In this document: positions 1 to 47,472 of the stretch, one piece after another
Position numbering within the stretch: the first letter of the stretch is position 1
Layout of the letters: every line of letters starts with the position of its first letter
Source: Cafeteria roenbergensis
Lineage: Eukaryota; Sar; Bigyra; Bicosoecida; Cafeteriaceae
Direction of reading: 5' to 3'
Assembly (NCBI GenBank): GCA_008330645.1
Contig: VLTN01000060.1
Span: forward strand, 62,001 to 126,000
Length of the DNA stretch: 64,000 nt
The notes under the pieces: generated by a model
What the model saw: only the letters and a program-made list of their open reading frames with translations
Databases searched by the model: none
What the model was told of the DNA's origin: nothing
Made by a program: the position numbers and the translations under genes

Positions 1-2156
1 GGACGCGGCCTGGATGGAGCGGCCGAGGTGGCGCTGCGTGAGGAAGGAGAGCTTGTTGCGCCGCGGCCAGCCGCGGCGGTGCTCGAACAGCACGGACGTG
101 TCCAGCAGGCGCGTGTGAACGAGCTTGAGGGCGCGCAGGTCGTTTTCCAGGGAGTGCCCAGCCAGCACGGCGCACGGCAGGGCGTCCAGAAGGGCGACCA
201 GCTCGCCGCGAGCGGTCTCCAGGTCCGTTGCTGGCCCGTCCTCCGCCAGCATCGCCGGCGTGATGCCGCTGTACTGGGTGACAAAGTCGCGGACGGGGAG
301 GGCTGGGCGAACGAGCCTGTCGAGGAGCGGCACGCCCGTGGCGCCGAGCACCGTGACGCGGGCGAGCGAGGTGCCCTCGTCAGTTCGAACCATCTCGCAG
401 TCGATGCCGATCACGTTGAGGACGGGGCAGCGAGCGGCAGCGGCGGCCAGCACCGGGAGCGCGGCGCGGTCAAGAGGCAGAGCCCCCGCCTCCGCAGAGG
501 CGGCGGGCAGGGGCGCAGCGCCTGGGCCGGGAGCGGCAGCCGCGGGCGACGCCAGCGCCTTGAGGCAAGCAGCGTCGCCGCATGCGGCGGCCGCATCAAC
601 GCTCAAGTCGGTGCCCTCCGGCCCAGACGCGCAGAGGGCGGCGACGTCGGCCGCCGCCGCCGCTGACGATGCGAAGGCGGACGCGTCCACCGTCTCGGCG
701 TGGCAGTCCGCCGAGGCGCCATCGGAGGGGGCGAACGACAGGCCCTTGGCGGATAGCGCCGCGCGCGCGGCAGCAGGCAGCGGCGCCCCGATCATCATCA
801 GCTGGGTCCAGCTGCAGAGCGCCCTGCGCAGCGCCGCAGACAGGCCGAGGGCCGGCTCCCCGGCCGCGACACCGTCGGCATCGGACGCGCGCAAAGCCTG
901 CACGGCCAGGGGGCGCAGCGGGCCCGGAGGCACGGCGGCCTTGGCGGCCGTGGCGACGGCGGTACGGTCCGCTGCGCTCGGGAGCTCCAGCGAGGGGCGG
1001 GCCGCGGCTGCCGAGCCGGCTGCCGGGTCGGCGGCGGCGGCGGCGGCGTCTGCGTCGTCGCTGGTGCCAGCGTGCCCGGCGGAGCTAGAGGCGGCACTCG
1101 GTGCAGCTGCTGCCGCTGCCCCGCCTGGCTGCCCGGCCTGCTGCTGCTGGGAGCCCCCCGAAGAGCCAAGCCCTGCCTGCTTGAGGGCCTCGGCCGCCTC
1201 GGCCGCCTCCTCAGCGAGGGTCTCCGCCGCTTGCTGTGCGGCCTCCAGGGCCTGCGCCACCCTGGACGCCATGCTCCACTGGGGGCCCTGGCCCTCCTCC
1301 TCGCGGCCCTCCTCCCTGGCGCGCTTCCGGGACTTTGCTTGCGCCTTTGCCGCGGCCGCGGCGCCGCCCTTTCGCTGGGAGAGCACCGTCTCGGACGCAG
1401 CCAGCGATGCGTCGGTCACGCGCCCAGTCTCCTGCAGCGCGGCGCGCACGGGTGGCGGCAGCTTGCTCTGCAGAGCCGGTGAGAGGTAGAGCACGGTGTC
1501 GGCCAGGTCCACCGGCTCTTTTGGCTTGCAGCAGTGAAGCTTGAGGCTGGTCAGCGCCGACAGGGAGGGGGTGAGGGACAGCGAGTGTGCTCCGGCCGCG
1601 GCTGCGTCGCCGCCCCCGCTGACGAGCAGCAAGACCACGCCAGGGAGAGACCCTCGCGACTCGAGCGAGGGGGGCGTGCCCTTTGCCGCGAGGCCGCAAG
1701 ACTGCAGCAGCAGCGTTGCGATGGTCTGCGGGCAATGAGGGTCGTGGGGCGAGGCGCGCGGGAGCCGCGCCGGTCGGCAAGAGCGGGCCTGTTCGCCGGC
1801 AAGTCGGAGGGGCGGGAGCGGGGAGGGGAGGGGGGTGCCCGCGCCGCAGCGCCCACCCTTCCCCCCGCGCGCACGCACGCACCGCCAAGCAAGGCCCATG
1901 CGGAGCCCAGCCAGTCGCTTACATCAGGCTGGAGGTCTGCCACACGGCGCTTGCCCGCATTGAGTTGAACCTTGGGGCGGACCATGTCCCACCCACGCGA
2001 CCGCTGCCCGTCCGTGGCCACTGCAGACACGACCGCCTCCACCTGCGACGGCTTGGGGAAGCCTACGGCATCATGGCCGTTCAGCGACTGCGTGAGCTGC
2101 TTGCGCCGCTTCTTCTTGTGGTTTGCAGGTGCTGCCCAAGCGGCTGCGTCTGCCAT
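1..2156 (-). CDS. REXO5/Rex1-like DEDDh 3'-5' RNA exonuclease, partial (3' end beyond left edge)
   Basis: The protein belongs to the DEDD exonuclease superfamily, REXO/Rex1 branch, whose members trim 3' ends of structured RNAs such as 5S rRNA, tRNA and snoRNA in the nucleus. Two exons are inferred: exon 1 at 1923-2156 (start ATG 2154-2156, basic stretch KKKRRKQ near residue 15) and exon 2 from 1725 to the window edge, with a 197-nt intron 1726-1922 (donor GTAAGC, acceptor CCCGCAG, phase 0). Exon 2 begins with a conserved-looking N-terminal region containing GVVLLLV, then about 350 Ala-rich residues. The catalytic domain follows: Exo I motif GIDCEM (D520, E522), YSGIT, and Exo II motif AGHSLENDL (D607). 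The Exo III motif would lie outside the window. Uninterrupted reading frames on the opposite strand here are shadows. The family is clear from the motifs; the exact subfamily is inferred. Confidence 0.85.
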
Positions 2157-37791: not shown

Positions 37792-40700
37792 TCAAGGCTG
37801 AGGGTGCCGCGTGCCGAGTCTGGAAGGGCCCATGGCGCCCCTGGGACCCTGCCAGCCGTGGGGACGGCCGCCCATGGGCTGTGCGCCGCGCGGAACGCCC
37901 AAGCCGTGCCCAGGGCGCGCTACCCACCCAGTCGCCCAGCCTGCGCCAGCGGGTCCTGGCTGCCCAGCTCCGAGTGCGGCGCCCACGGCAGCCGCAGGCG
38001 GGGAAGCATGCCCGAATGGCCGAGGGCGGCCGGGGCCACGGGGCGCTTGTGAGTGCATCGTGGCCACCGCCGGGCGCAGCCCCCGGTCCAGCAGGAGGTG
38101 AACAGCCTGGTCCGCGGCCAGAGAGGCCGCTCGTTCTGCCGCCCGCGCAGCAACGCGCTCCACCAGCGCGTTCAGCTCGTCTGCCGACATGGTGACGGAG
38201 CCCGCTGCCGGGGCCGAAGCAGGCCCTGCAGCTGCTGTGGCAGAGACTGCCGTCGGTGCGGCTTGGGGCGGGTCTGGCGACTGGCGTCCCTGCAGCAGCA
38301 CCTGAAGCGTGGCCACATGAATGTCCTCGAGACGACGGCGGTACCAGGCAGCAACCTGGGTCGGCGTGGTGAGCTTGATGGAGCTGGCTTGGTGGCGCAC
38401 GTACATGACGGCTGATGCCTCGTCTCCCGGAGGACCCAGGGCCTCATAGCCCCGCGCTGCAAACACGTCCTGCACGTAGAACGTGATCTTTGCAACGTGA
38501 TACTCCGCGAGCTGCGCTTTCTGCGCCGGGATGTTGGCGTTAAGCCGCGTGCGCAGCAACGCGGCAGCAGTCTCCTGGTCGGTGCTGGGCACGCTGACGG
38601 GAAAGAACTGCACGTCATAGTAGCGGCCGTCCAGAGGTGGCCGCACGCTGTTGCTCAACACTTTGTCCACCATGCACACGAAGTGGTCCTGAAGCTTCTC
38701 GGGCAGAGCCATTGTGTCCACGGTGCGGTCGTCATTGACTCCAAAGTACAACGACCCGCCAGCCGAGTTCAGGAACGAGGACGCATACTTGGGCAGAATC
38801 GACTGCAGGAATGCCCCCCATCCCGCCCTGGACAGGGCCTTCAGCTCTCTGTCGTGCCGCTCGGGCAGATTCAAGGGAGATCCCCACCTGACCGCGTGGC
38901 CCACGACCACGCGAGGACCGTGAGACCCCGACACGGAACGAATGGTTGTGGCTTCCCTCCGGAGCATGCCCGGCTGCGGTGCGTCGCGCTCCTCAAAGGA
39001 CGGAGCAGGGCCAAGGAGCGGGGCGCCCGGCTCGCTGGGCGAACTCCCGACGACGGGCCTGCCGAAGGGAAAGGCCGCCGCCCTACCGTGGGTTGAGCGT
39101 GTCGGTGTCTCGCTCGAAGCAGCGTCCGCGGAGGGAGCCCAGCCCGGAAGCTGCGCACCCTGAGCTGAGAGGGGCATTTGCAGGCTGGGAAACTCATTGA
39201 CCACGCCAGAGGCGTTGCGAGCCGGGCTTGAGGGCATGCGTTCCAATCTACCGCCATGCGCTGGCAGCGTCTCGCTTGGGCAGACGACGCGGCAGCCCTC
39301 GACGCGCAGCTCCGGGCAGTAGGCGGCGATGGCCTCGCTGATGGTCCCACCGCATGACGCGGCGTCTGCCTCCGTGTTGCCGGGTCGAGAGGCGGACTGC
39401 AGCCCCAGCGCCGCTCCTGCTGCCCGAGCCGAGGCCTCGGCGGGGCCCAGCTGCGCCTCGCCCAGGACCGCTGCCATGTCACCTGGGCTTGCCACACCGC
39501 CGGGCCCGGCCCTCCCGTGGCCCATCACCTTGCCGCGAAGCGATTGCGACGCTGCAGCTGCCATCACGCCAGCAAAGCACAGCGCTCGGCGCAGCGCCAG
39601 CGGGTCCAGAACGACGCGAAGGTGCGTGGCCAGCTCGGACAAGCTTACCTGCCGGCCTGCCTGCGTGGCGACGCGCACCTTCGCCCGGACGGCTTCTGCG
39701 AAGCGCGTTCCCGAGAGGGACCGAGCGTGCGGCATCGACGGCTCCAGCCGCCTATTCGCGTCCGCCGCCGCTTCGCCAATGGCAGAGAGCGCGAGCGGGC
39801 TCAGACGCGCGCTGCGCACCTCGGCAGCCTGTGCGACGGGGTCGACGGTCTCTGCCGTGTCCGACAGCGCGCGAATCGACTCGGGAGCCGCGCGCGCAGC
39901 GCAAATTGCCGCCGTCGCGAGAGGGCCGGAGGCCGGGACAGCCAGGCTGGCTGAAACCGTTCGGATCACCAAAGGGTCGAGCAGGCTCTTGGCCATCGAG
40001 CCTCGCAAGTCGCGTGCCAGGAGTTCCATGTCATGTTCGAAGGCGTCTTCGAGCGCGACGGTAGCGAGCGATGTCCCTACCACCCGCGAGACGAGCGTGG
40101 CAGGCCCGCTCTCACAGAGCTCAATTCGGGATCCCTTGACGCTCAGGATTCCGTGGCCCGCCAGCAGGGCGATTCGCAGCGCCTCCAGGCCTCGCTTGGG
40201 ACGCGATGTGCGGCCTGGCTCCGCCGGCTGGCCCTGGCCCTGGCCCGCCGGCTGCTCCTTGAGGGTCTCGATGATGTCCGTCACTTGCGTTGCATGGCTC
40301 GCGGCAGGGTGGGTGCCCCCGGCTGCGGCGGCTGCGGCTTCTGCAGCCGCTGTTGCAGCCGCCGCGGCCTCGGCCACCTCGCCTCGCGGGTGGCCCGCAG
40401 CCGTTGCGCCCCGGCCAGAGCCCTCGTCTCCAGCGTCGAGCCCGCCGGCCGGCCCAGCGTGCTCAGCCAGCAACTCAGCAAGCGTGGCAGCCTCCAGCGA
40501 TGGCGCCGCACTGCCGCCACTGCCCCTCTGGCCCTCAGCAACCAGCAGCAGCTCACGAACCGCCGCAGTTGCCAGGCGGGCATGGGCCGGACTGGCGAAA
40601 CACGGCAGCGGTGCCGAGGCGGCGAGCAGAGCCAGGCTAAGGCGCACGTTGGGGTCGAGTCCCTCGGAGGCCCCAATCGACTCCGACGTGCGGAGGCCGG

Positions 40701-43700
40701 GCACCTGCTGCGTGGGGACCGACACCACAGCGCCAAGGCCGCGGCCAACCACTTCAAGGTATCCGGGCTGCGATGCCAGCACTGCCGAGGGCTCTGCCTC
40801 GAGCGCGGTGAGCAGGGCCGGAGTGATGTCCGAGCCCTCCAGCTCCGCGTGCAGCTCCCGCAGCTCAGCGCGCACGGACGGCAAGCCAAGCTCCGCTGCC
40901 CGAGCCACAAGCGCGGCGCGCACCGACTTGCAGTACATCCGACGGGCTTCGCGCACGTGCCCGGCAAGCGAGGATGCCGGCGCTGCCTCGGCGACGGCGC
41001 CGCTCGGGCCGGTCGCGGGCGCAGAGTCGACGGCAGTCGCAACGCCGAGCGTCGGCTGGGCCGCGGGTGCTGTCGTGTCCGCTGACGTGCCAGCCGCGGC
41101 ATCGGTCGCTGCATCAGTCGAGCCCCGCCGGGATTTGAGCGTGACAATCAAGTCGCCGCTGCCGTCGGGGTCGTGGTGGAAAGCAATGGTGTCGCCCTCT
41201 GCCAGCACGCTGATCAAGTCCTCGGGCATCATGCCCTCGGAGAGCTCCTCCTGCAGGAGCTGCCGCAGTGGCTGATGCGGCAGGCTCCCCGAGAAGTCCA
41301 CGAGGAGGTCCCGCACGCGCAGGCGGATCGCTGCGTTGCGGGCCCCATCGTCGCGAAGCTCGGCCACATTGCCTTCGAAGCGGAACATGCTGGTGTCGAG
41401 AAGCCACTTGATTCGGGCCTTCCAGACCTTCCCGTCCCGGAAGCCGGCCTCGATCACATTGAACTGCTCCGCGCTCAGCTCAGACCGAAGCAGCTCGCCC
41501 ACCGTGCTGAGGAGAATGGTGCCGCCAGACGGGAGTGCGCGGCGCAAAACCGCGGCGAGAAACTCCCGGCGAGCCGCCCGGAAGCCAGCCAGGCGGTCCT
41601 CGACCTCGTGCACGGTGCGCAACGGTTGTCGCTTGGCCTTGTCCGACCCCACGTGCAGGGGCACTAGTGATTCGGGCGGCGCCGGCTCAGGGGCCGCGGG
41701 GGCAGTGGCGTCAGGCGCCCCAAGGTCTGGGCGTTGCGCGGGCATGTGCGGAGCACCTGCGCCGCCTTTGCCAGCGCCATGGGGCGAGCCTGGCCGGTCG
41801 GGGCCCGCCGCTGACGCCAGCGATGCCAGCCCCCCCGGCGCCGGGGCGAGCCCAGCCGGGGCTCCTTGCGACTGCGCTTGATGGCTTGTACGTCGGCTGA
41901 GCGGCTCCGTCTCGAGCGAGGCCAGGCGCCTCAAATCTCGCTCTGCGGCCATGTCGGGAGCAGCACCGCCCCTGTCGTCCGTGCCAAGCGTGCCAGGCAG
42001 GACGGTTCCCGAGAGGCCTAGAAAGTCCGAGTCTTGGTCCAAAATGTCATGCCACGAGGGACCCACCGCCTCGGCTTCCGATGACGCGAAGGCGTCCTCG
42101 CGGAACGGCCCAGTCACGCTTGTGTCCCGGCCGCCGACTTGACTCTCAGGGGAGTCAATACCGCTAGAAACGCCACGGCGGCGCCCATGGGGCCGCTGGG
42201 CCGCCGGCGACCCCGGCTTCGAGGCAACCGAGCGAAGCTGCTCCGAATAGGCAGCGTTGACTGCCTGGCCTTGGCTTGAAAGGGGCGCCAAGCCGTAAAA
42301 GTGAGACGAAGTCGCCGAGGCCGCGCTGATGGACCTGACGAGAGACACATCGGGCAGCGCTGCGATCAGGCCTTCTTCCGCGCCCCGCTCGGTCCGGTCG
42401 TCCGCAGCCGAGGCCGTTGCAGGTGCGGCCGCCGCCGCGGCGGCAGCATGGAGGGATTGGGGTTGGCGCCCCTCTGTCGGGGCGCCGTCGTCCTTCCTGC
42501 GGCCAGTCGTGTCCGAGCCGCTAGCGGGCGTCGGGCTCTCTGACACCAGGTTTCCAAACCTGTCCACCAGCGGAACCCACGCGGCCTTGAGCCGAAACGC
42601 AACGCTCGCCAGGCGCACCACCCGCTCAACCGTGTCGGCCGAGAAGAGCGACCGCTTCGCGGTGACTCGGCCACGCCGTTCCAGCGCGCGATCGGCATCA
42701 CGGGAGCTGTTGCCACCCTGGGGCGGCGCGGAGCCTCCGGGCAGCGAGCTCGAGCCGATGCCACTCGCCGGGTCAGCGACAGCGGGCGCAGACTCTGCGG
42801 CCTCAGAGGCGGCGGCTGCCGCTGCGATCGAAGGAGGCGTCTTGGCCCGGACGCCTCCTTCGGCGGCTGCAGCCGCCACCTGGGACAAGGAGGGCGGAGA
42901 CGTGGCTGACGGCTCGGCGCCGGTCGCAGCGGCGGCTGCGGCTTCCAGGTCTGGGGAGCCCGAGAACGTGCCTGCAAGCCCGGAGCTGCCCTCGTCGGGG
43001 GGCGGGTCGCTGCTGAGAGACGGCCTGGAGCTGGTGACCCGATCCGTGGCGGATCGGCGAATTCTGTCCCCGGCCCTCTGCTGCTGCGTCCTGCTGGCGC
43101 CGGGGCACCCCATGGAGTCGGCGGTGCGCCATCTGCGCGCGTCGGCTCGGCTTCCCAGCCCTGGTTGCGTGCCGACGCGTCCGTCAGCGCTCAGCGCGCT
43201 CTTGACTCGCAGCCGCACATCGGAAGCAAAGGCGCCCCAGGCCGAGACAGTGGGAAGCGCGAACATCTCCCCGGAGTCAGCGACAAAGGCGCCTCGAGGG
43301 AGCAGCTCGTCGTGCTGGGCCTTTGGCGATCGCAGCAAGTCAAGCAGCCGCATCGGCGCCCCCTTGGTATCCACCAGCAAGGGCTGACCGGCATGAGAGC
43401 AAGCGGCGGTGCTGCTCGTGCTCGGGGAGCGCTGGTCGGCTTCCACCAGGCTCCGCGAGCGACCCGCCACCGCAAGCGGGGTGGGAGCACCGGCAGGATC
43501 GCAAGGCTCTCCGGAGCTGTCCGGAGCCGTTTGTCTGGCATGCAGCGCAGCGCCCGACCCTTTGGCATCTTGTTGTCCCCCTTTCGCACGGGTCTCCCGG
43601 AGACAAGGCTCGTCAGGCGGCCCTCCTCTGAGCGAATTCACCCAGGCCAGCACTTCTTCAGGAAGGAACGACCTGAGCGGACAGGACTGCAGCCCGCGAG

Positions 43701-45282
43701 GCAGGCGGCCTCCGCAGCGCGACCAGAGCGACTGCAAAGCCATGCAGCTCTCCATGGCGGCAAGTGTGCTCTTTAAACCCTGGTCAAGGCGCTTGTCGCA
43801 GACAGCAACCGACTCCTTGGACGCACGACCGAGCGCGTTGATGTTCGCGATGTGGCTGGGAGCAAGCCCGCGCTCAAACAGCGCCTCAAGGGCGTCGTCT
43901 TGCCCTAGGAACATGATGCGCTCCCACAATGGCTCCTCGACATGTGGCCTGGCCTCAATTTCGCTGTAGACGCGGCGCAACTCTTGCGCAACAAACTCGG
44001 CTTGAATGAAGACGATTTCCGTTGGCCCACTTTGCTCGTCTGGCATCTGGCCGACACTTGGGCCAGCAGAGCTCTCGCAGTCGGAGCCCTCCGTCCCTCC
44101 GACGGCGCGCGGTCGCTGCGAGAGGCCCTCGCTGCTGCCGAGCATCCCTGCGCGCTGGACAAGCAACACGCCGGCCTGGTGCAAGCCACCGCCCGACGCG
44201 ACGCCGACGCCGACGCCGACGCCCGGGTGCGGTGGAGCTGCCCCCGCTGGGGGGCTTCCTGTTGGGGCTCGCACGGCGTCGTCGGCAGCGACGGCTTCGT
44301 TGGCTTCGCTGTCGCTTTCGACATGGTAGTCAAGGTCGTCCGACTCGTTTCCGTCGCTGTCGGGAAGCGGCGCCGAAGCGGGGCACGGTTCCGCACGATC
44401 GGTCGGAGCCTGCTTTTTGGCTCGCTCCCGCTCCAAGTGAGAAGGCGTGCTGAGGAGGGACGAAAACGACGACTGCGACCGGATCCGGTGGCAGTGCGTT
44501 CCTGGCGCCACGCGCCGTGTGCCGCTGCCAGCGACGTCTTCCGAGCCGCTCATGTCGGCCCGCATCGCTGCGGACGTGGAGACTTGCGCAGAAGGCGGCA
44601 GCGCGTCGTCATGCTGGCTGGCCGCCAGAATGGACGTCAGTCTCAGGGCCAGGCCAGCCTCGTCCGAGAGCCTGATGGCTGCCCGGGGCGGTTGCGAGTG
44701 CGGCAAACTTGTGGACCCAGGGTGCTCCTCAGGCCCGCTCTCGCCTTCGCCCGCTGCTCTGGCCGAAGCTTGGCCGGGGCGCTCTCCGCGGCAACCATCC
44801 AGCCCTGGAACGTCGCGCCCTGCAGCTGCAAGGACAGCCGCCAACGCCCAAGCGCTGGGCCGTGCTCTGGACCTCGACGCGCCCGCGGCAGCTGCCATAA
44901 TGACGAGTTCCGCCTGTGCTGGCGCCACGCCAGCTGTTCCGCCGGCCAGAGTCTGTTCGCACAGCAAGGCCACGAGGCCCCAAGGGTCAGGGCTGAGGAA
45001 CACTGCTGCCTCAAGGGCACGCAGCGTACCGCACTCCCTCCGAGAGTAACCCGCACTTTCGAAAGAAAATGTTGTTGGCGGGCTCGCAGTGAGCGCCCCG
45101 GCGGCGCGGCCGCAGGCGAGCATAGCGCGACCGCAATCTGTCGAAGCTTGAACTGCAGCAGCAGCCGGTGATTTCCCCACTGTGGCTGCACGGTCCAGCA
45201 GGACAAACTCAGTTATCGCTGCCATGACCCCCAGCACGCGCTCGGCGCGCTTGGCCACCCCCTCGGCCCGGGATATCGGCAT
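37792..45282 (-). CDS. Giant Schlafen-like AlbA_2-domain protein (2,496 aa)
   Basis: The single long exon encodes a mostly Ala/Ser/Pro-rich protein with folded islands. Near the C-terminus (about residues 2140-2310) there is a Schlafen/AlbA_2-type domain: ERHDRELKALSRAG, then ILPKYASSFLNSAGGSLYFG, VNDD, and later YYDVQFFPV and VMYVRHQASSIKL. Schlafen family domains of this kind bind nucleic acids, and some cut tRNA or rRNA. Upstream, about residues 1225-1530, three helix-rich modules of about 70 aa (starting REFLAAVLRRAL, IRLRVRDLLVDF, MYCKSVRAALVARA) look like winged-helix or LOTUS-type repeats, but this is weak. The extreme C-terminus is Gly/Pro/Arg-rich. The start at 45282 (MPISRAEG) is preferred because the helix that follows looks protein-like; an in-frame start at 45495 would overlap the promoter facing CLP1. 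No helicase or AAA domain is seen. The role is unknown; RNA metabolism or antiviral defence are possibilities. Confidence 0.7.
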   Translation of the reverse strand: MPISRAEGVAKRAERVLGVMAAITEFVLLDRAATVGKSPAAAAVQASTDCGRAMLACGRAAGALTASPPTTFSFESAGYSRRECGTLRALEAAVFLSPDPWGLVALLCEQTLAGGTAGVAPAQAELVIMAAAAGASRSRARPSAWALAAVLAAAGRDVPGLDGCRGERPGQASARAAGEGESGPEEHPGSTSLPHSQPPRAAIRLSDEAGLALRLTSILAASQHDDALPPSAQVSTSAAMRADMSGSEDVAGSGTRRVAPGTHCHRIRSQSSFSSLLSTPSHLERERAKKQAPTDRAEPCPASAPLPDSDGNESDDLDYHVESDSEANEAVAADDAVRAPTGSPPAGAAPPHPGVGVGVGVASGGGLHQAGVLLVQRAGMLGSSEGLSQRPRAVGGTEGSDCESSAGPSVGQMPDEQSGPTEIVFIQAEFVAQELRRVYSEIEARPHVEEPLWERIMFLGQDDALEALFERGLAPSHIANINALGRASKESVAVCDKRLDQGLKSTLAAMESCMALQSLWSRCGGRLPRGLQSCPLRSFLPEEVLAWVNSLRGGPPDEPCLRETRAKGGQQDAKGSGAALHARQTAPDSSGEPCDPAGAPTPLAVAGRSRSLVEADQRSPSTSSTAACSHAGQPLLVDTKGAPMRLLDLLRSPKAQHDELLPRGAFVADSGEMFALPTVSAWGAFASDVRLRVKSALSADGRVGTQPGLGSRADARRWRTADSMGCPGASRTQQQRAGDRIRRSATDRVTSSRPSLSSDPPPDEGSSGLAGTFSGSPDLEAAAAAATGAEPSATSPPSLSQVAAAAAEGGVRAKTPPSIAAAAAASEAAESAPAVADPASGIGSSSLPGGSAPPQGGNSSRDADRALERRGRVTAKRSLFSADTVERVVRLASVAFRLKAAWVPLVDRFGNLVSESPTPASGSDTTGRRKDDGAPTEGRQPQSLHAAAAAAAAPATASAADDRTERGAEEGLIAALPDVSLVRSISAASATSSHFYGLAPLSSQGQAVNAAYSEQLRSVASKPGSPAAQRPHGRRRGVSSGIDSPESQVGGRDTSVTGPFREDAFASSEAEAVGPSWHDILDQDSDFLGLSGTVLPGTLGTDDRGGAAPDMAAERDLRRLASLETEPLSRRTSHQAQSQGAPAGLAPAPGGLASLASAAGPDRPGSPHGAGKGGAGAPHMPAQRPDLGAPDATAPAAPEPAPPESLVPLHVGSDKAKRQPLRTVHEVEDRLAGFRAARREFLAAVLRRALPSGGTILLSTVGELLRSELSAEQFNVIEAGFRDGKVWKARIKWLLDTSMFRFEGNVAELRDDGARNAAIRLRVRDLLVDFSGSLPHQPLRQLLQEELSEGMMPEDLISVLAEGDTIAFHHDPDGSGDLIVTLKSRRGSTDAATDAAAGTSADTTAPAAQPTLGVATAVDSAPATGPSGAVAEAAPASSLAGHVREARRMYCKSVRAALVARAAELGLPSVRAELRELHAELEGSDITPALLTALEAEPSAVLASQPGYLEVVGRGLGAVVSVPTQQVPGLRTSESIGASEGLDPNVRLSLALLAASAPLPCFASPAHARLATAAVRELLLVAEGQRGSGGSAAPSLEAATLAELLAEHAGPAGGLDAGDEGSGRGATAAGHPRGEVAEAAAAATAAAEAAAAAAGGTHPAASHATQVTDIIETLKEQPAGQGQGQPAEPGRTSRPKRGLEALRIALLAGHGILSVKGSRIELCESGPATLVSRVVGTSLATVALEDAFEHDMELLARDLRGSMAKSLLDPLVIRTVSASLAVPASGPLATAAICAARAAPESIRALSDTAETVDPVAQAAEVRSARLSPLALSAIGEAAADANRRLEPSMPHARSLSGTRFAEAVRAKVRVATQAGRQVSLSELATHLRVVLDPLALRRALCFAGVMAAAASQSLRGKVMGHGRAGPGGVASPGDMAAVLGEAQLGPAEASARAAGAALGLQSASRPGNTEADAASCGGTISEAIAAYCPELRVEGCRVVCPSETLPAHGGRLERMPSSPARNASGVVNEFPSLQMPLSAQGAQLPGWAPSADAASSETPTRSTHGRAAAFPFGRPVVGSSPSEPGAPLLGPAPSFEERDAPQPGMLRREATTIRSVSGSHGPRVVVGHAVRWGSPLNLPERHDRELKALSRAGWGAFLQSILPKYASSFLNSAGGSLYFGVNDDRTVDTMALPEKLQDHFVCMVDKVLSNSVRPPLDGRYYDVQFFPVSVPSTDQETAAALLRTRLNANIPAQKAQLAEYHVAKITFYVQDVFAARGYEALGPPGDEASAVMYVRHQASSIKLTTPTQVAAWYRRRLEDIHVATLQVLLQGRQSPDPPQAAPTAVSATAAAGPASAPAAGSVTMSADELNALVERVAARAAERAASLAADQAVHLLLDRGLRPAVATMHSQAPRGPGRPRPFGHASPPAAAVGAALGAGQPGPAGAGWATGWVARPGHGLGVPRGAQPMGGRPHGWQGPRGAMGPSRLGTRHPQP

Positions 45283-45497
45283 GGGCACGCTGGCTTTGGG
45301 CGCGGTGACTTGCTGACTCCTGGACCCCCCGCGCTTGCTTTCGGTAGAGACTTGGCTAAAATATGCGGCAACCTTCGCCTGAATATGCGCGGCCTTGCAC
45401 ACGCAGCCCACAAAGCGCGCGCTCGTCGCCGCCCCGCGGCTCCGAGGAGGGCGCCCCACCTCGTGCCGTTTGACATACGGCTTGGCCGCGCCCAAGC
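45283..45497. promoter_or_regulatory. Putative bidirectional promoter, Schlafen-like / CLP1 genes
   Basis: The 215-bp spacer between start codons contains two AT-rich islands in a GC-rich background, AAAATATGCGG (about 45358-45368) and GAATATGCGCGG (about 45379-45390), which are near repeats of each other. Confidence 0.4.
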
Positions 45498-47472
45498 ATG
45501 TCGACAGCCCTGCCGGCTGGCACGTGGCGAATCGGCGAAAATGGCGAGCTTCGCCTTCGCGCCCCGGACACCGTCAGGACGACTGTGACGGTGAGTTCGC
45601 AGGGGGCAAGGCACAAATGCCGCGCTGCGGCTATCAGGGCGTTGGCAGTCGCGGCCAGGGGGCGTCCCCCGTCGGCGGGCAGCCCGAGCACGTGGCGTTC
45701 TTGCCGACTGTCTCGCCTTGGTGCTCCGCCCGCGCACGGCCACGGCCTCCTCCCACCGCTTCTCGCAGCTCCTGGAGGGATCGGCAGAGATGCTGGGCGT
45801 CGAGCTGCTGCAGGCCAGGCCTGTGGTCTTGCCGCCAGGGCAGTCGCGCCCGGTGTTCACATTTCACGGAGCTGTGGTTCGCGTGGAGCCTGCGTCCAGC
45901 TGCGAGGATGCGTACGTTGCGGACGAGAGCACCTTTCCAGCGCTGGCAGCAGTCAACTCCAGGCTTGAGGCCCGCCGAGCCCTCGCTCGGGGAACGGTGG
46001 GGGGGCTGCCAGCCGACACGGCGAGCGCCGCGGCCGGCTCTGCAGACAAGGCCGCCCCCCTCGGTCCCGTTGTGGTCGTCGCGGGCCCGGTCAACGCTGG
46101 CAAGAGCACGGCGGTTGCCACTCTGGCCGCCTGGGCTTGCCGGAGGGGCTGGTCTCCGACCGTTGTTGATCTCGACCCGGGCCAAGGGGACCTGTGCCCG
46201 CCTGCGTCCGTGTCAGCAGCCCCTGTCGACCGCATCGGCCTCGCCGCCAGCGGCGGCTGGGAGACGCACGCGCTGCCCATTCTCTCCTACCCTGTCGGGA
46301 CGACCAACCTGGGCGAGGCGGCGCCGCTCTTCAAGGCGGCCTGCGCAAGCCTCGCCGCCGCCGTGCAGGCCAGGGCATCGGCCGGCGCCCCGGCAGGATC
46401 GGCGTCGGGGGCCATCGTCAACACGTGCGGGTGGGTCGACAAGCTAGGATACACACTCCTGTGCCACGTCATCGAGACATTCAACGCTGACGTGGTGCTG
46501 GTCCTTGGAGATGACGCCCTCTTCGCCCGGCTGAGCCGCGACCTGCCGGCAATCGCGCCCCCGCCGACCCCGGAGCAGGTGGCCGCAGCGGGCGCCGCCG
46601 CCGTCCCAGTGTCCGGCCCCACCCGCGTCGCCCTCGTGAAGCTCCCTGTCTCTGGCGGGGCCAGGCGCCGGGAGCCCTCAGAGCGCCAGGCCGCCAGAGC
46701 CGGCCGTATCCGGGAGTACTTTTACGGCCCGCCCGTGGCGCCTCCGGCCGCCCCAGCAGGGGCTTCCGCGGCCCCACCCGCCGCGCCCGAGCCCCTCCTC
46801 TCCCCCCTCTCAACCACACTCAGCTTCGACTCCGTGCGCCTGGTAAAGGTGGGGGGCTCAGAGGTGAGAGCGCGCACCGCGGGGCTCTGCCCATCGCGCC
46901 TCTTTGCCGCAGGGCCGCGCCTTCGATCCAACTGCAAGCCTCGCCGCGGGCCCCAGCGGCGCGAGGAAGGCAGCTTGCAGCGCGCCCGCAACGTCGCCAC
47001 TGCCCGCGCCGCCCGAACCTAAGCCGATCCTTCCTCGCCCTCCGCGCAGACGGCGTCCCACCAGCTGCCTGTGGGCGCGAGCTCCCAGCTGAGCGCGCTG
47101 CGCGTGACGGCGCTGGACCCGTCTCCCGCCCTCGAGGGGTCCCTCCTCGCGCTCTCCTCCGCAACGTCGCCCGCGCGCGCTGCCACTGCCTCCCTCCTAG
47201 GCTTTGCAGTGATGTGAGTCCGCCATCGCCTCGCGGTGCTGTCCTCGCTCCCCGCCCAGCCCCTCGCCCTCGAGTGACGCAATACCCTCACTCCTAGCGG
47301 CCCACTGACGCAATCGCCCCCGGCTCCGCCCCCTCTCTCGCCGCGATCTCGCCCCCGCAGCACCACTGTGAACACGGAAAAGCGCGAGCTCGTGCTCCAG
47401 CTTCCCACAGCCCAGCACCTGCCTGCGCCCGCACTCTTCATCGTCACGTCGGAGCGATACTCCGATGCGTAA
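45498..47472 (+). CDS. CLP1: CLP1 polyribonucleotide 5'-hydroxyl kinase / pre-mRNA cleavage complex II factor
   Basis: CLP1 is a nuclear P-loop protein of the mRNA 3'-end cleavage machinery (with Pcf11) and, in animals, of tRNA splicing, where it phosphorylates RNA 5' ends. Four exons are inferred: 45498-45590, 45769-46863, 47050-47213 and 47361-47472; introns have GTGAGT, GTGAGA and GTGAGT donors and GCAG acceptors. The 487-aa product has the N-terminal domain (GSAEMLGVELL, VFTFHGAVVRVE), Walker A GPVNAGKST (K143), Walker B region VVDLDPGQGDL, NTCGWVDKLGY, and the C-terminal domain (SFDSVRLVKVGG, LALSSATS, LFIVTSERYSDA). The kinase lysine is present. A Pro/Ala-rich insert before SFDSV makes it longer than the human protein (425 aa). 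The exon joins restore the family's C-terminal pattern, supporting the model. Confidence 0.92.

Follow-up and report, generated by a model that had tools for sequence, protein, structure and literature searches.

The open reading frame at positions 37792-45495 of the window, by which we mean the whole stretch of 64,000 nucleotides of Cafeteria roenbergensis DNA analyzed in this study, ends in a C-terminal domain that is of the Schlafen-type AlbA_2 family and belongs to the fold class of the Schlafen C-lobe. In our assessment, the gene probably encodes a very long Cafeteria protein, disordered-looking over most of its length, that terminates in a single-lobe Schlafen-type endoribonuclease subunit. 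The Schlafen fold itself is known; what appears to be new is its occurrence as a single lobe, with the active site complete, in a giant protein that looks mostly disordered and has two relatives in the same genome. The features of the gene and of its divergent neighbor are the following:

37792..45495, minus strand: open reading frame of 2,567 codons plus stop, with a probable start at Met72 (45282) that gives 2,496 amino acids; an intron-free reading is assumed
38926..45282, minus strand: residues 72-2190, a long N-terminal region, most of it rich in Ala, Pro, Ser, and Gly and, judging from its composition, probably disordered
38320..38901, minus strand: Schlafen-type AlbA_2 domain (residues ~2199-2392), identified by Pfam, a held-out profile, hhalign, an AlphaFold model, VIA-align, Foldseek, and its similarity to a second copy on contig C30
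37795..38268, minus strand: C-terminal tail (residues 2410-2567), judged by eye to be a possible helix followed by a Gly/Pro/Arg-rich end
45498..47022, plus strand: divergent CLP1-type gene, with exon 1 at 45498-45590, a predicted intron at 45591-45768 (178 bp), and exon 2 from 45769; its end is that of the open frame

The ORF scan found the minus strand open over all 2,567 codons, in a window whose 2-kb stretches have a G+C content of 64-75%; when the window was simulated 40 times with a first-order Markov model, the longest stop-free run reached by chance had 760 codons, with a mean of 577. Within 37792-45495, the remaining two frames of the minus strand contain 32 and 49 stop codons and the three of the plus strand 19, 29, and 52; the plus-strand translation of 37792-45282 contains many. 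Two observations favor Met72 as a better start than the upstream TTG at 45495: 3 bp separate this TTG from the position where the CLP1 gene is predicted to start (45498), and the CLP1_N match rises from 38.6 to 54.3 bits once exon 1 is joined to part of exon 2. The frame of 2,496 codons proposed in the initial annotation is recovered from Met72 to the stop, but on the minus strand, and the "2.5-kDa-scale" size given there should read about 250 kDa. Both peptides it quoted are present, one at residues 2235-2254 and YYDVQFFPV at residues 2292-2300; all residues are numbered here from the 2,567-codon frame, in which its region 2140-2310 becomes 2211-2381.

The identity of the domain is supported by several lines of evidence. 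Pfam places SLFN_AlbA_2 (PF04326) near the C-terminus with an E-value of 3.1e-6 for the whole protein and 3.6e-8 for the domain alone, and the corresponding scores of 28.2 and 34.4 bits exceed the curated gathering cut-off of 25.3. In a phmmer search of the PDB sequences, the ten matches listed were all Schlafens (best E 0.006), and a profile built from the window domain and its two relatives (A2) found 14 Schlafen sequences among the matches listed (E 1.3e-10 to 3.7e-6), the other six being unrelated (best E 0.88). A held-out profile, made from three vertebrate Schlafens and three bacterial or phage relatives and leaving out the window and C30 domains, recovered the window protein at E 1.1e-13 and the C30 protein at E 2.1e-12 when searched against 106 sequences; none of the 100 shuffles did better than E 3.9. 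The AlphaFold model of the domain is modest, with pLDDT values below 50 at the catalytic residues; Schlafens occupy ranks 1-14 in the Foldseek comparison of this model, and ranks 1-18 of VIA-align are all Schlafen or SAMD9. An insertion of ~50 residues (about 2305-2357) precedes the last pair of strands. The initial annotation, which had called this a Schlafen/AlbA_2 protein and had suggested a PF04326 search and a structure prediction as checks, is borne out by both, as well as by the PDB sequence search, the held-out profile, and hhalign.

Special attention was given to the catalytic residues. In human SLFN11, cutting is abolished by the substitutions E209A, E214A, and K216A, while D252A still cuts (PMC9482658). 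We anchored the equivalent positions on human SLFN11 chains, including the E209A mutant 7zep, so that they come from the alignment and not from a confident model:

38860..38862, minus strand: Glu2212, aligned with SLFN11 E209, a metal ligand there (PMC9482658)
38845..38847, minus strand: Glu2217, aligned with SLFN11 E214, a metal ligand there (PMC9482658)
38839..38841, minus strand: Lys2219, aligned with SLFN11 K216, essential there (PMC9482658)
38731..38733, minus strand: Asp2255, aligned with SLFN11 D252, the third acidic position, not essential there (PMC9482658)

According to this alignment, the residues essential for SLFN11 cutting are all kept in the window protein; the conservation of catalytic acidic residues, which the initial annotation had left to be checked, holds for Glu2212 and Glu2217 and extends to the lysine. 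The second Glu follows the first by five residues, and it is followed by the Lys at +2 and the Asp at +38, a spacing also found in human SLFN11 and SLFN13. SLFN12 has a Glu at the position of SLFN11 D252, a pig SLFN11 fragment has one additional residue before the GG turn, and the C30 copy retains all four positions (Glu/Glu/Lys/Asp).

The same positions were examined in 21 bacterial AlbA_2 domains, taken from 31 loci after leaving out nine without a match to our text pattern and one (L025) in the wrong frame. The first Glu is present in all 21 (20 as printed and one corrected by eye) and the second in 18, while the third position is Asp in 14, Glu in six, and Lys in one. The pattern required a Lys at +2, and hence the count says nothing about Lys conservation in bacteria; in the Pantoea and Rugamonas L014 sequences, the script chose the wrong Glu-x-Lys, and both were corrected by eye. 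From these alignments, the acidic site is an old feature of the family, and since the two Glu are common to most of the bacterial domains checked, they do not single out Schlafens. The distance from the second Glu to the GG turn is 29 residues in the window, C30, SLFN13, SLFN12, Pantoea, Rugamonas, and L044 sequences; in the other 20 bacterial rows, as printed, it varies from 22 to 34, with none at 29 and four at 30, so that this spacing alone is a weak marker.

Our search of the organism's own genome (36,303,456 bases in 167 contigs) identified two relatives of the window domain:

Contig C30, L003 2373-9998 and continuing into L004: open frame of 3,162 amino acids, with the domain at ~residues 1962-2290 and a long insertion within it
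Contig C98, L008 1279-3084, minus strand: frame of 601 amino acids, with a probable degenerate Schlafen fold in its C-terminal part

The C30 domain is a second complete Schlafen-type domain that passes the Pfam cut-off and is 34% identical to the window domain in 108 aligned columns (E 9.6e-9 when just the two proteins are compared). Nearer to its C-terminus, C30 also has a weak PDZ match, whose 20.1 bits (E 8.4e-4) fall short of the cut-off of 23.2. C98 is probably a third, degenerate relative, whose membership in the family is weak: its domain falls below the Pfam cut-off (E 0.017 to 0.063), but with a profile that includes the window and C30 domains it outranks 1,000 of its own shuffles and 395 control frames (E 0.0076), and it is recovered at E 0.037 by the held-out profile, at E 3.2e-4 by a wide AlbA_2 profile, and at 81% by hhalign. 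Its profile alignment starts past the catalytic Glu/Lys stretch, the MAFFT alignment pairing one Glu instead, and its N-terminal part has no Pfam match. Three weak candidates, C32 (E 0.044), C7 (E 0.13), and C6 (E 0.06), were outside the eight best rows of the control comparison. The same genome, searched exon by exon in six frames at E 0.001, gave no match to Piwi (PF02171), a negative to be read with the possible incompleteness of the assembly and with the single match among 14 control genomes, and no match to RNase III (PF00636), which was matched in eight of the 14 controls. RNA interference may thus have been lost from this organism.

Relatives of the domain also occur on bacterial and phage-like DNA. 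The protein of the Pantoea plasmid pJZ29-02 (WP_324022114.1) matches the window domain with 51 bits (E 5e-5), and the best vertebrate Schlafen matches the window protein with 17 bits, a score obtained with a different program from that of the Pantoea comparison. Among plasmid records, at E up to 10, two match the window domain and six match the C30 domain. The search with the Pantoea domain gave one locus, L012 (Rugamonas rivuli), and alignments A3 and A4 led to one and three viral loci, respectively; no relative was found with the window domain alone among the viral contigs, with profile A2 in the genome contigs collection, or, at E 0.001, with the Rugamonas domain among phage records. One of these sequences is the following:

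IMG/VR contig IMGVR_UViG_2884900585_000005, L044, 1928-2956: Schlafen-type AlbA_2 gene of 342 amino acids with phage-like neighbors

The frames beside it resemble what we take to be P2-type ogr and tail genes. The Pantoea, Rugamonas L012, and L044 proteins have ~340 amino acids and all the catalytic positions; in the N-terminal part of those from Pantoea and L044, Pfam finds nothing credible, and PADLOC reported no match for these two. The family they represent, on a plasmid, a Rugamonas contig, and L044, is possibly an uncharacterized phage-defense cargo. In Rugamonas rivuli L012 (G001:C22:499746-501308), two different AlbA_2 matches are close together on the same strand.

A tree was built from 28 domain rows, the 20 bacterial rows being the counted set without L025 and L014. 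In it, the window and C30 domains group with the three vertebrate Schlafens, the three bacterial or phage sequences, and a single bacterial row on a long branch, separately from the remaining 19 of the 20 bacterial rows, with a support of 84/94 that is not starred. The pairing of the window domain with C30, itself a long branch, has a support of 87/22. These data would fit inheritance and transfer alike.

The rest of the protein provides few recognizable elements. A Pfam scan at E up to 10 found AlbA_2 only, with no helicase, SAM, or NTPase domain; the N-terminal part is without a match in it, and scans of its separate pieces gave none that is credible. More hydrophobic islands can be seen by eye near residues 490-625, 1295-1455, 1511-1590, 1738-1830, and 1927-2075; an AlphaFold prediction of residues 1290-1595, made without relatives, has a pLDDT of 40.7. 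MARF1-like proteins combine a nuclease with an array of LOTUS/OST-HTH domains. A LOTUS/winged-helix array suspected by eye at residues 1295-2075 was unsupported by sequence profiles: with a bacterial LOTUS profile of only 18 sequences (20 loci fetched, two of them lacking full flanks), the window protein does not enter the 14 top-ranked rows, most of them shuffles, and the highest hhalign value is 5.5%, for segment 1300-1385 over 44 columns (E 0.007 when that comparison is taken alone). The PF12872 search found no match in the own genome and none in any of the 14 control genomes either.

Only one Schlafen fold is recognizable, the best non-overlapping segment of 200 residues reaching 1.4% in hhalign. 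It is important to consider that profile A2 gives true vertebrate N-lobes scores of only 2.5-7.1 bits in the alignments listed, and therefore a diverged second lobe in the window protein could be missed. The zinc ligands of SLFN11 are H285, C287, C321, and C322 (PMC9482658); residues 2199-2407 of the window protein include a single Cys, and consequently a four-ligand zinc site cannot form there.

Based on the sequence comparisons, the domain is most likely a metal-dependent RNase subunit. Glu2212 and Glu2217 would bind a divalent metal, either Mn or Mg, and this metal site, together with Lys2219, would cut structured RNA; tRNA or some other small RNA is the most likely substrate. Because the lone fold is without the second lobe that completes the core of vertebrate Schlafens, it would be expected to act as a homodimer or together with its relative C30 or C98. 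We infer in these steps the RNase activity, the use of a metal, the dimerization, the RNA target, and any function in stress or virus infection. The initial annotation's description of a large single-gene RNA-targeting factor is plausible in its RNA-targeting part, while the lone Schlafen fold probably needs a partner.

With respect to the biological role, we first consider the surroundings of the gene. The ATG of CLP1 and Met72 of the Schlafen frame are 215 bp apart in a head-to-head arrangement, and nine of the 18 window frames or frame parts have a Pfam match, the other nine having none at the limits used. The neighbors named in this way are a dynein heavy chain (two parts), a radial spokehead protein, a kinesin, a P450, CLP1, a calpain, a C2H2 zinc finger, and an exonuclease domain, so that the nameable surroundings are housekeeping and not a mobile or defense island. 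The exonuclease (RNase_T) domain is located at the edge of the window (1-1899, minus strand; E 5.4e-5) and scores 24.2 bits, the cut-off being 24. This context could speak for housekeeping RNA processing, for instance the maturation of tRNA or mRNA 3' ends, from a promoter shared with CLP1; since divergent neighbors are common and prove nothing, and the arrangement is known from one strain, we regard this role as somewhat unlikely.

An antiviral role, in which infection by a giant virus would lead to tRNA cutting and a stop of translation as in SLFN11, SLFN13, SAMD9, and the bacterial phage-defense Schlafens, is possible by analogy, although we consider it rather unlikely. Immunity is a reasonable hypothesis because the vertebrate relatives SLFN11 (PMC9482658) and SAMD9/9L (PMC11221667) are antiviral, bacterial Schlafens are described as anti-phage (PMC12839542, citing a preprint), and Cafeteria is the host of CroV and mavirus (PMC6972860). 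The fold and the essential residues are the same as in these relatives, and among the closest bacterial relatives found, one is on a plasmid and one in a contig of a viral collection with phage-like neighbors. However, the sequence context gives no sign of this role: the nameable neighbors (dynein, kinesin, radial spoke, P450, calpain, CLP1) are housekeeping, half of the frames tried being matchless, and no sensor domain was recognized in the window protein.

A catalytically inactive domain that binds nucleic acids within a scaffold, as in SLFN5, would agree with the low pLDDT at the catalytic residues and with the consideration that a full RNA groove may not form from a lone lobe. The preservation of every residue essential in SLFN11, in C30 as well as in the window protein, argues against it, and we consider this explanation rather doubtful.

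Given a complete (C30) and a probable degenerate (C98) relative in the same genome, a composite nuclease resembling the worm PUCH is possible by analogy for the endoribonuclease subunit that we favor. In its most specific form, the window, C30, and C98 proteins would be the giant or mid-sized single-lobe subunits of a heteromeric Schlafen nuclease that cuts tRNA or small RNA under stress or giant-virus infection, which would place a PUCH-like enzyme outside animals and the piRNA pathway, in a protist in which neither Piwi nor RNase III is detected; we present this as an improbable, speculative extension. A subunit for Piwi-pathway small-RNA maturation, which the single recognizable fold and the three such proteins in the genome might recall, is very improbable, as no Piwi or RNase III match was found in that exon-by-exon genome search, and the piRNA role is therefore not carried over.

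Schlafens are known mainly as interferon-induced tRNases of vertebrates and, more recently, as phage-defense RNases of bacteria. A stramenopile that can be cultured with a giant virus and a virophage, and that has a single-lobe Schlafen with a complete site, would be a test bed for distinguishing an old eukaryotic antiviral shut-off of translation from separate recruitment, and also for composite nucleases of single Schlafen folds beyond nematodes.

Among known systems, SAMD9 has further domains, SAM and a P-loop NTPase; in the window protein, unlike SAMD9 and SAMD9L, the AlbA_2 domain is C-terminal and the Pfam scan finds no other domain. No paper on protist Schlafens was among those listed by literature searches with broad terms, most of which do not contain the word Schlafen; this is weak evidence of absence. 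The claim that the architecture is not known from animals holds only in part: single Schlafen folds exist there in worm TOFU-1/2 and SLFL-3/4 and in human SLFNL1 (PMC10567574), as do large proteins with an AlbA_2 domain, SAMD9/9L (PMC11221667), while for the long disordered-looking front and the two relatives in the same genome we met no parallel in the portion of the Schlafen literature consulted. The worm PUCH consists of three single-fold subunits with the catalytic residues on TOFU-2, TOFU-1 being non-catalytic, and has a role in piRNA production (PMC10567574). As in the PUCH proteins and SLFNL1, whose sequences are set beside ours by description only, one Schlafen fold per chain is recognized in the window protein, where a diverged second lobe could escape, and the two complete copies and one probable degenerate copy of this genome recall the catalytic and non-catalytic members of the worm set; unlike PUCH, which serves worm piRNAs, they occur in a genome with no Piwi match in our search. 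The window protein shares with the Pantoea plasmid, Rugamonas L012, and L044 proteins the 29-residue spacing from Glu to GG, all catalytic positions, and a joint group in the tree, although these are only ~340 amino acids long. With the C-lobe of vertebrate Schlafens (SLFN5/11/12/13/14), it has in common the AlbA_2-type fold and a P-x-Y ahead of the GG turn, and with human SLFN11 and SLFN13, equally spaced equivalents of E209, E214, K216, and D252; unlike them, it has one recognizable lobe, no H/C/C/C zinc site, no helicase found, and more than 2,000 additional residues N-terminal to the domain.
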